Shown here: in pieces, positions 4,053 through 6,231 of the stretch
How positions within the stretch are numbered: the first letter of the stretch is position 1
Layout of the letters: the number at the start of each line of letters is the position of its first letter
DNA from: Eubacteriales bacterium
GTDB taxonomy: Bacteria > Bacillota > Clostridia > Saccharofermentanales > DTU023
NCBI GenBank assembly: GCA_028706195.1
Contig: JAQWBU010000006.1
Span: 1 to 34,228, forward strand
Direction: 5' to 3'
Length of the DNA stretch: 34,228 bases
Translations under genes and position numbers: made by a program
The notes under the pieces: model-generated
What the model was told of the DNA's origin: nothing
The model's input: only the letters and a program-made list of their open reading frames with translations
The model's database searches: none

Positions 4053-5498
4053 TCACAGCGAGTCGCCGAAATCCGACCTGAAACGCGCGACTAGTTTTTC
4101 CTGCCAGTCAGAGACGGCTTCCAGTTCTCCTGTGAAGAAACGTAAAATCTTGGGTTCTCTCGTGAAACGAAGCCCTGCAATCAGCTCTCGGTTTTGCCAC
4201 AGCCAGTGTACACGGTCGATGCAGTATTTAATCTGACTCAAGGTGAAGACTCGACGGGGCACAGCCAGGCGGAGAAGCTCCATCGAGGCATGGGCTTCAC
4301 TGCCATCTGCATGGCGATCTTCACTCAGCGTACCTCTTTCCATACCACGGATACCGCCTGCGATGAATAACGCAGAAGCCAGTGCGGCTGCCGGATATTC
4401 ATCAGAAGCAATGTGGGGAACAAATTCCTTAGCATTCAGATGACAACCTAAACCGCCGGCAGGTGTAACTACCGGCACCCCCAGTTTTGTCAGTTCCTCG
4501 ACCATATAGCGAATGAATTCAGGGCCTTGAGAAATGACGGATTCATCCATGGACTCTTCGAGCCCTACAGTAATTGCAGCCATTTCCCGCACCGACATAC
4601 CGCCATAAGTTAAAAATCCCTCATTCAAAACGATCAACTCCTGAAGAGGGTTGACCAGAGGGCTTTCTCTTAAAGCTATACCGCCACCCCTGGCGAAACC
4701 GAATTTCCTGGCGGAAAAGTAGATAATGTCGCAGCAGTCAGCAATAGCTCTCATGATCTCCCGAACAGACATCTCGCGACAGTTTGTCTCTCTGCTTTTA
4801 ATAAAATATAAATTATCCTGAACTAATGATGCATCAAGGACTAAAGGCACGTCATGTTCGCGACAGATCCCGGAGCATTCCTGCAGGTTGGCCAGGGAGA
4901 ACGGCTGACCGCCAATTAAGTTAGTGCCTGCCTCCATGCGTACAAAGGGAATATTTCTCTCACTATTTTTCAAAAGTGTTCGCAGAGCATCGTTGTCCAT
5001 GTTTCCTTTAAATGGCTTATCGCTGGTGTACACTTCGCCTTCTGCACACAGCAACTCCAGTACTTCGCCGCCGCAGCGCACAATGTGCGCTCTGGTCGTT
5101 GTGAAGTGGTAGTTCATGGGAATGAGATCACCGGGCCTGACTAATAAGTCTGCCAGAACCTTCTCACAACCGCGACCCTGGTGGGCCGGCAAAAAGTGCT
5201 CCATGCCAAAGAGATCCTGGACTTTTGCCTCTAATTGGAAAAATGTCTCGCTACCGGCATAAGCATCATCCGCATCCATCATGGCAGACTGCTGCTTGTC
5301 ACTCATGGCATTGACGCCACTGTCCGTCAGCATGTCCAGGAAGACATCCCGGTTTTTCAATAAATACAGGTTATTATGTGCTTCTTGCAGTTTACTTAAC
5401 CTTTCTTCAACCGGAAGCAGCTCCAATTTCTGGACTATGCGCACCTTGTGACGCTCCAGAGGTATCATCTCTCCACTAAATAAACGAATTTCCTGCAT
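4053..5498 (-). CDS. Tryptophanase/tyrosine phenol-lyase family PLP enzyme, TPL-like
   Basis: PLP-dependent beta-eliminating lyase of the TnaA/TPL family, 481 residues. Recognisable blocks are LTDSGVNAMSDKQQSAMM, DAYAGSETFFQLE, AHQGRGCEK, MNYHFTTTRAH, NLIGGQPFSLANL, the PLP-lysine segment FSARKFG (Lys265) and LRLAVPRRVFT with the substrate-carboxylate Arg. Two positions that separate the subfamilies look TPL-like: Thr133 in FTTTR (TPL Thr124; E. coli tryptophanase has Asp) and Arg388 in GMERG (TPL Arg381, phenol-binding; hydrophobic in tryptophanase). Some usually conserved residues differ: DATR reads DASL, the Lys before the PLP-Lys is Arg, and NIGG reads RGGG. Substrate is therefore uncertain. 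The start is ATG 5498, with GGAGG a few bases upstream; an in-frame TTG at 5513 overlaps that Shine-Dalgarno and is unlikely. It is controlled by the T-box at 5551-5829. Confidence 0.85.
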   Translation of the reverse strand: MQEIRLFSGEMIPLERHKVRIVQKLELLPVEERLSKLQEAHNNLYLLKNRDVFLDMLTDSGVNAMSDKQQSAMMDADDAYAGSETFFQLEAKVQDLFGMEHFLPAHQGRGCEKVLADLLVRPGDLIPMNYHFTTTRAHIVRCGGEVLELLCAEGEVYTSDKPFKGNMDNDALRTLLKNSERNIPFVRMEAGTNLIGGQPFSLANLQECSGICREHDVPLVLDASLVQDNLYFIKSRETNCREMSVREIMRAIADCCDIIYFSARKFGFARGGGIALRESPLVNPLQELIVLNEGFLTYGGMSVREMAAITVGLEESMDESVISQGPEFIRYMVEELTKLGVPVVTPAGGLGCHLNAKEFVPHIASDEYPAAALASALFIAGGIRGMERGTLSEDRHADGSEAHASMELLRLAVPRRVFTLSQIKYCIDRVHWLWQNRELIAGLRFTREPKILRFFTGELEAVSDWQEKLVARFRSDFGDSL

Positions 5499-5550
5499 GT
5501 CTCTTTCCTCCAAATATTAGTTTTGTCGATGGCCATGGCGGGAGGATCCG

Positions 5551-5593
5551 GAAAAAAGAAAAACGTCCATCCTGCTATGGCGCAAGAGGACGT
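5551..5593 (-). terminator. Regulatory intrinsic terminator of the T-box
   Basis: On the minus strand ACGTCC (5588-5593) pairs with GGACGT (5563-5568), with an inner TGC/GCA pairing. It is followed by an almost pure T tract (5551-5562). The left arm overlaps the 3' half of the antiterminator, so the two structures are mutually exclusive, as expected for tRNA-controlled attenuation. Confidence 0.92.
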
Positions 5594-5829
5594 CATGAGA
5601 CGTGTTACCACCTCTGTTCACTTTCAACTCACATTGAAAGCCTCGACAGGTTCTCCACACTGAACAGATTTCTGTGCTTTTAAACCTTAACGCTGTTACG
5701 GGCGCACCCGTCGTCTCCTACTCTTAGTTCAGGACGCTGCTCCGGAGATGTATTCGCTCTGCTTTGACTTAATGCCTCGCACCACCCGGCATCTCTCTGA
5801 AAGTCTCGATACAAAGTTACTTCTTCTCC
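5551..5829 (-). promoter_or_regulatory. T-box riboswitch leader with tyrosine (UAC) specifier
   Basis: All main T-box parts can be traced on the minus strand. The Stem I base is GGAGA (5825-5829) pairing TCTCC (5744-5748). Above it are the loop-E partners AGTA and GAA, then CTTTG/CAAAG, GACTT/AAGTC and a TGCC/GGCA apical stem with the typical AGAGAG and GGTGGTGCGAG elements. The specifier directly after GAA is TAC (5750-5752) followed by A. A further hairpin is ACGGG-TGCG-CCCGT (5698-5711). The T-box core is AGAGGTGGTAACACG (5601-5615). The antiterminator pairs AGAGG (5611-5615) with CCTCT (5585-5589) and ACGT with ACGT, leaving a 7-base bulge TGGTAAC whose TGGT matches an ACCA tRNA end. A competing terminator follows. 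Uncharged tRNA-Tyr should therefore permit transcription of the TPL-like gene. Identification as a T-box is very secure; Tyr specificity is read from the specifier. Confidence 0.93.
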
Positions 5830-5889: not shown

Positions 5890-6231
5890 TTACTCAGCAT
5901 CCGGAGGGAAAAAGACACAGAGCCAGAGGCAGGGATCGGACGTGCGTGTCACCTTATGCCTGCGGCCTGCTTCCAAATGGAAAAAATCACCGCTGCTTAG
6001 AGCTATAGTGTGGCCGTGCTCGTCTGGAAAAGTGATTTCAGCTTCTCCGACCAGAACTATGACCCACTCGTCATCGTCCTGGTCATAAACCACACTGGTC
6101 TGACCCTGGGAAAGAATGCGAGTTATACGCACAGAGCTCTTGCTCAGCAAGTCTTCGTCCCGTTCAAAGCGGCTTGCATCCGGCAGTCTTTGGAATATAT
6201 TAGTTAATTGATCCTTATCCACGAAACCCAA
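5890..6231 (-). CDS. Small single-domain cupin protein
   Basis: A 113-residue cupin. The two conserved motifs are visible as YDQDDDEWVIVLVGEAEI (first barrel strand pair) and SGDFFHLEAGRRHKVTRTS (second), ending in WLCVFFPPD. It belongs to the small stand-alone cupins of unknown reaction. The usual first-motif His pair is absent, leaving Asp/Glu and the His of RRHKV as possible metal ligands, so metal binding is uncertain. The frame starts at a TTG (6231) with only a weak upstream purine stretch; a GTG at 6222 is an alternative. It sits head to head with the GNAT gene and upstream of, but not obviously cotranscribed with, the TPL-like gene. Confidence 0.75.
   Translation of the reverse strand: MGFVDKDQLTNIFQRLPDASRFERDEDLLSKSSVRITRILSQGQTSVVYDQDDDEWVIVLVGEAEITFPDEHGHTIALSSGDFFHLEAGRRHKVTRTSDPCLWLCVFFPPDAE

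Follow-up and report, generated by a model that had tools for sequence, protein, structure and literature searches.

Many anaerobic bacteria encode a relative of tyrosine phenol-lyase (TPL) that, as gene and leader sequences suggest, is turned on in tyrosine shortage and serves to produce the amino acid, with phenol as the probable ring donor, and not to break it down. The gene described here lies in the stretch of DNA that was analysed (34,228 nucleotides, hereafter the window) behind a tyrosine-specific T-box, and the reading that we favour, with fair but limited confidence, is that this T-box-controlled TPL-like enzyme supplies tyrosine, most likely by joining phenol to aminoacrylate.

The T-box leader and the gene that it precedes

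A search of the window with Rfam cmscan revealed a single T-box, at 5843-5583 on the minus strand, matching the full length of the RF00230 model (positions 1-219) with a score of 117 bits (gathering score 93 bits) and an E-value of 1.7e-25. The initial annotation had recognised a complete minus-strand T-box here, and the Infernal check agrees with it in all but the extent of the element, which had been drawn to 5829 and actually reaches 5843. No second T-box was found in the whole source genome G000 (1.67 Mb, 85% complete). The leader comprises stem I, stems II and IIA/B, stem III and the antiterminator; the Infernal alignment places the specifier codon UAC (Tyr) at 5752-5750, exactly where TAC had been proposed, within the motif GAA-UAC-A at 5755-5749. 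The T-box bulge UGGU (5610-5607, minus strand), previously noted as the site that binds the tRNA end, is predicted to pair with the tRNA 3' ACCA. Both contacts, UAC and UGGU, fit the tRNA-Tyr of G000, since its anticodon is GUA and its discriminator base is A. The Tyr reading of the specifier is further calibrated by a genome of the same order as the window's (L049), where the GAAUACA motif also stands ahead of the tyrosyl-tRNA synthetase gene.

The antiterminator hairpin (5584-5615, minus strand, from the RF00230 alignment; predicted fold −10.6 kcal/mol) and the intrinsic terminator (5552-5594, minus strand; GACGUCCUCUUGC...GCAGGAUGGACGUU followed by a U tract; −19.2 kcal/mol, z −5.5) have the 5' arm of the terminator in common and are thus mutually exclusive, as had also been claimed initially. 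The lyase gene (4053-5498, minus strand, 481 aa) begins with ATG at 5498, preceded by the ribosome binding site GGAGG (5511-5507), and is monocistronic, the next gene downstream being on the opposite strand. A gene for a small cupin-type protein (5890-6231) is located just upstream of the lyase gene on the same strand, and a similar gene adjoins the lyase gene at locus L035. The gene neighbourhood was considered as a clue to function and set aside, since the neighbours differ in L032, L035, L036 and L038-L043.

A third clade of the TPL/TnaA family

HMM searches confirm the initial assignment of the product to the TnaA/TPL family of beta-eliminating lyases (PF01212, 160 bits, cut-off 27), and the protein passes the broad NCBI 'tryptophanase' model NF009709 with 568 bits. 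The score with the TPL equivalog model TIGR02618 is 403.5 bits against a cut-off of 720.7, and with the tryptophanase model TIGR02617 it is 314.9 bits against 825.8; a canonical TPL from the same bacterial family (L028) reaches 892 with TIGR02618. The protein is identical to TPL at 38% of positions and to E. coli TnaA at 33%, and its predicted structure (pLDDT 90) fits entries of either enzyme similarly well, with Z-scores of 49-52. In a tree of 85 rows, the window lyase was placed in a clade of 70 rows (support 100/100) that lies outside the TPL clade, on a long branch away from both TPL and TnaA. Judged by sequence and modelled fold, the window lyase is a protein of the TPL/TnaA fold belonging to a third clade, separate from TPL and TnaA. 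A TnaA-type tryptophanase paralogue, with D124, I381 and H448, is encoded on another contig of the same genome (G000:C37:5163-6521).

In C. freundii TPL numbering, which is used throughout for the clade, the residues Y71, R100, T124, N185, D214, K257, M379, R381, R404, F448 and F449 are retained, the only exceptions being copies behind UGC leaders described below. The window lyase possesses the equivalent of the catalytic lysine K257 and the TPL phenol-site residues T124, M379, R381, F448 and Y71; the Thr133 and Arg388 pointed out initially correspond to T124 and R381, in support of the TPL-type pocket proposed from them. The indole-site residues of TnaA, D137, I396 and H463, are replaced by T, R and F in the window lyase. 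Of the five positions reported to distinguish TPL from TnaA (PMC5805759), four are TPL-type in the clade and position 288 is TnaA-type.

Several other positions have changed across the clade: R217L, E69D and K256R are fixed throughout, N262R/K is found in all members but one (T at 262), T183G in all except five deep ones, and H343 is replaced by L or V. Arg217 is invariant in TPL and TnaA and is Leu in the whole third clade; in TPL, it is one of the residues to which binding of the substrate carboxylate is ascribed (PMC3870968, where the numbering is offset by 18). At the TPL positions Arg217, E69 and N262, the third clade has L, D and R/K, respectively. The K+ site of TPL is formed by E69 and N262, and in the third clade the cation may therefore be replaced by the basic side chain at position 262.

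Distribution of the clade and control of its genes

Of 398 genomes that sample the phylum, 43 encode a member of the third clade; further members occur in two Betaproteobacteria and in two Mycoplasmatota genomes, one of them Haloplasma. Leaders were classified for 70 clade members with upstream DNA. The survey of homologues that the initial annotation had recommended found T-boxes with a UAC specifier in 45 of the 70, spanning many families as well as Mycoplasmatota (L077 is counted here on account of GAATACA and GGTGGTA in its longer leader), and T-boxes with a UGC specifier in three; the UGGU bulge is present in all of them. Ten further members have a G-rich GG-repeat motif in the 5' leader, three have a Tyr-rich leader peptide with a terminator, and nothing was recognised in the remaining nine leaders, which include those of both Betaproteobacteria. 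No T-box was found ahead of the TnaA-type and canonical TPL paralogues L025-L031 or ahead of the TnaA-type paralogue of the window genome.

In genomes G030 and G033 the lyase gene is present as a tandem pair, with a T-box ahead of each copy. The second copy, which in G033 is truncated where the contig ends, has a UAC specifier and the standard pocket, while the first has a UGC specifier and Ser in place of F448 in both genomes, with R381 additionally replaced by His in G030; these UGC copies have also lost H122, E139 and G333, positions that are fixed or nearly fixed elsewhere. The UGC loci are L107:1953-3395 with its leader, L021:673-2115 and the L096 leader, with F448S, R381H and H122P recorded in the tandem cases; L096 combines a UGC leader with an intact phenol pocket. 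The frames of the UGC tandem copies are intact and their dN/dS is about 0.05, indicating purifying selection, which rules out that they are degenerate copies or pseudogenes. That the UGC leaders are simply T-boxes for Cys was also rejected, as the tRNA-Cys of G030 has the discriminator U, a mismatch to UGGU. Specifier and ring pocket have changed together, in a single duplication event, and such a coincidence would be expected of a T-box that is matched to the product of the enzyme.

The same gene is linked to other putative control devices. In G094, G398 and G355, a Shine-Dalgarno sequence precedes a short frame containing ...MNRYYxYTTACxxAYR, after which comes a terminator hairpin; these leaders (L125, L126 and L127) belong to a separate lineage, and the Tyr-rich peptide and terminator lie about 190-230 bases before the gene. 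They look like devices for ribosome-mediated attenuation at Tyr codons, and the case for this reading is their conservation in three genomes, since four Tyr codons in the leader of one genome are reached by 3% of shuffles.

In the ten clade members with the G-rich motif, none of which has a T-box, WRGGAYGGTAGRA or a close variant is located near the leader start. The motif, AAGGUAGGAYGGUAGRA with GG every four bases, occurs in the leaders of L083, L084, L087, L088, L090, L093, L099, L121, L128 and L129, and was also recorded at L139, L146, L148 and L149. A genome-wide scan of twelve genomes, in which total counts of the motif were near background, revealed the exact motif ahead of aroF-tyrA in four of them (G300, G225, G269 and G405), and in G225 a TrpX-like transporter gene is preceded by it as well; 4 of the 14 other matches have tyrA within 2 kb in the same orientation, with a chance probability roughly estimated at 3e-11. 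The trp RNA-binding protein TRAP is encoded in all ten genomes with the motif and is absent from two checked genomes without it. TRAP senses Trp, and its presence in all ten means that control through the GG motif may answer to Trp and not be specific to Tyr. The UAG triplets of the motif are spaced 5 nt apart, unlike those of known TRAP sites, and the motif could possibly represent TRAP sites that are unusually spaced, or else a novel RNA element. Whether Trp or Tyr is sensed, the lineages with the GG motif treat the gene as one of aromatic amino acid supply, not of catabolism.

Proposed role and comparison with known systems

The wiring of the gene is of a biosynthetic type, which is why a tyrosine-supplying enzyme is proposed. 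Uncharged tRNA-Tyr would be sensed by the transcriptional T-box, leading to synthesis of the monocistronic TPL-like PLP enzyme, which would condense phenol with aminoacrylate, derived from pyruvate and ammonia or from serine, into tyrosine; TPL chemistry in the synthetic direction would then be its main cellular job. An anabolic role is favoured because the wiring spans the clade and arose by more than one mechanism. Tyrosine as the product is the better supported part of this proposal, and phenol as the ring donor the less supported one. The initial annotation had already argued from the tyrosine-shortage wiring to an enzyme working in synthesis, and this part gains from the clade-wide wiring and the variety of its mechanisms; the notion of an ordinary TPL run backwards is not established, in view of the separate clade, the score below TIGR02618 and the loss of R217. 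For an equilibrium constant of TPL in the order of 1e-5 M2, about 0.2 mM Tyr could be sustained at 0.1 mM phenol, 1 mM pyruvate and 20 mM ammonium, so that synthesis appears feasible in an anaerobic digester. TPL serves in vitro to prepare tyrosine derivatives, with phenols, pyruvate and ammonia as the starting materials (PMC7431475).

The pathway genes of the carriers give a mixed picture. With tyrA and chorismate synthase scored by PF02153 and PF01264, prephenate dehydrogenase and chorismate synthase are missing from all five genomes of the window's genus. In the phylum sample, tyrA is missing from 19 of 43 carriers and 72 of 355 non-carriers (p 0.0009), and chorismate synthase from 12 of 43 and 37 of 355, respectively (p 0.003), both comparisons ignoring shared ancestry and gaps in MAGs. 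Among genomes with chorismate synthase, the difference in tyrA loss (7 of 31 vs. about 40 of 318) is not significant (p 0.16), and within the window's own family the lyase gene does not track tyrA loss. About half of the carriers have tyrA, and in some the whole pathway is present; the enzyme would accordingly add to TyrA and not simply replace it; simple replacement was rejected, as many carriers possess both genes and the excess of tyrA loss has a p of 0.16 once chorismate synthase is taken into account.

A stronger version of the proposal, which we hold tentatively and rate slightly below an even chance, regards the third clade as a dedicated tyrosine synthase using phenol and a C3 unit and bypassing the shikimate pathway, put under tyrosine-starvation control by T-boxes, by an attenuator of the leader-peptide type and perhaps by one more RNA element, with the UGC tandem copy re-aimed at another product. 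The enzyme may instead supply tyrosine without phenol, as a salvage PLP lyase that uses another ring donor or frees tyrosine from a conjugate or modified amino acid. The clade-fixed catalytic changes R217L, T183G, H343L, E69D and N262R/K and the H at 122 speak for this, as does a search of the window genome in which no phenol source was found, but the full TPL phenol pocket T124/M379/R381/F448 is retained, and this reading seems unlikely, though deserving of attention.

It is quite improbable that the enzyme is an ordinary tyrosine-degrading TPL, the T-box being a quirk or serving, for example, to regulate the release of phenol or ammonia: fold and pocket are identical in type to those of TPL, but tyrosine would be destroyed exactly when Tyr-tRNA is short, the wiring has been kept over many families and reached by more than one mechanism, and the score is below the TPL equivalog cut-off. 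Similarly poor prospects are given to a broad beta-lyase or beta-synthase whose substrates would be cysteine or further C3 amino acids, and for which the Tyr T-box would be one specialisation and the UGC T-box, perhaps for Cys, another. The UGC copies of G030 and G033, which dispense with F448 (and R381 in G030), H122, E139 and G333 and yet remain under purifying selection, would suit such an enzyme, but the discriminator U of tRNA-Cys in G030 does not fit UGGU, L096 has a UGC leader with an intact pocket, and the tandem evidence comes from one duplication. A fortuitous match, or a T-box that belongs to another gene, is hardly credible given the E-value and the position directly 5' of the lyase gene, and conservation of the element in dozens of genomes refutes this reading.

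If the proposed role is correct, the reverse TPL reaction, known from biotechnology, is a natural route of tyrosine supply, also in the absence of the shikimate pathway; the name 'tryptophanase' that these genes receive from the broad NCBI model would have to be corrected, and cross-feeding of phenol would be predicted in anaerobic communities. A literature search returned only incidental co-mentions of T-boxes with TPL or tryptophanase, with no link drawn between them; an earlier mention in subscription papers is possible.

TPL and TnaA are classic examples of enzymes that break down amino acids and are induced by the substrate. Known TPLs are activated by TyrR with tyrosine (PMC1173090), whereas the third-clade gene is predicted to be on when tyrosine is short, and the opposition to TyrR and tnaC control that had been suggested initially is upheld. 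The window lyase resembles the TPLs of C. freundii and E. herbicola (EC 4.1.99.2) in predicted structure (Z-score 52, rmsd 1.6 over 446 residues, at the 38% identity given above) and in the catalytic K257, Y71 and phenol-site T124, M379, R381 and F448, but differs from them in its separate clade, its score (403 bits vs. 721) and the changes R217L, E69D, N262R/K and M288F. With TnaA (TIGR02617) it has in common the fold, the PLP site and F288; unlike TnaA, which the window genome encodes as a distinct paralogue, it has no residues of the D137/H463/I396 type. The thiocysteine lyase (SH) domains of polyketide synthases belong to the same superfamily (9cen, Z-score 36 with the predicted structure), but they are embedded domains and are reported to be without Arg381 (PMC3870968). 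The leader itself is closest to the Tyr T-box of tyrS in L049, with the same GAA-UAC-A specifier, UGGU bulge and terminator/antiterminator switch, but the gene that it would control encodes a PLP enzyme of the lyase type and not a synthetase.
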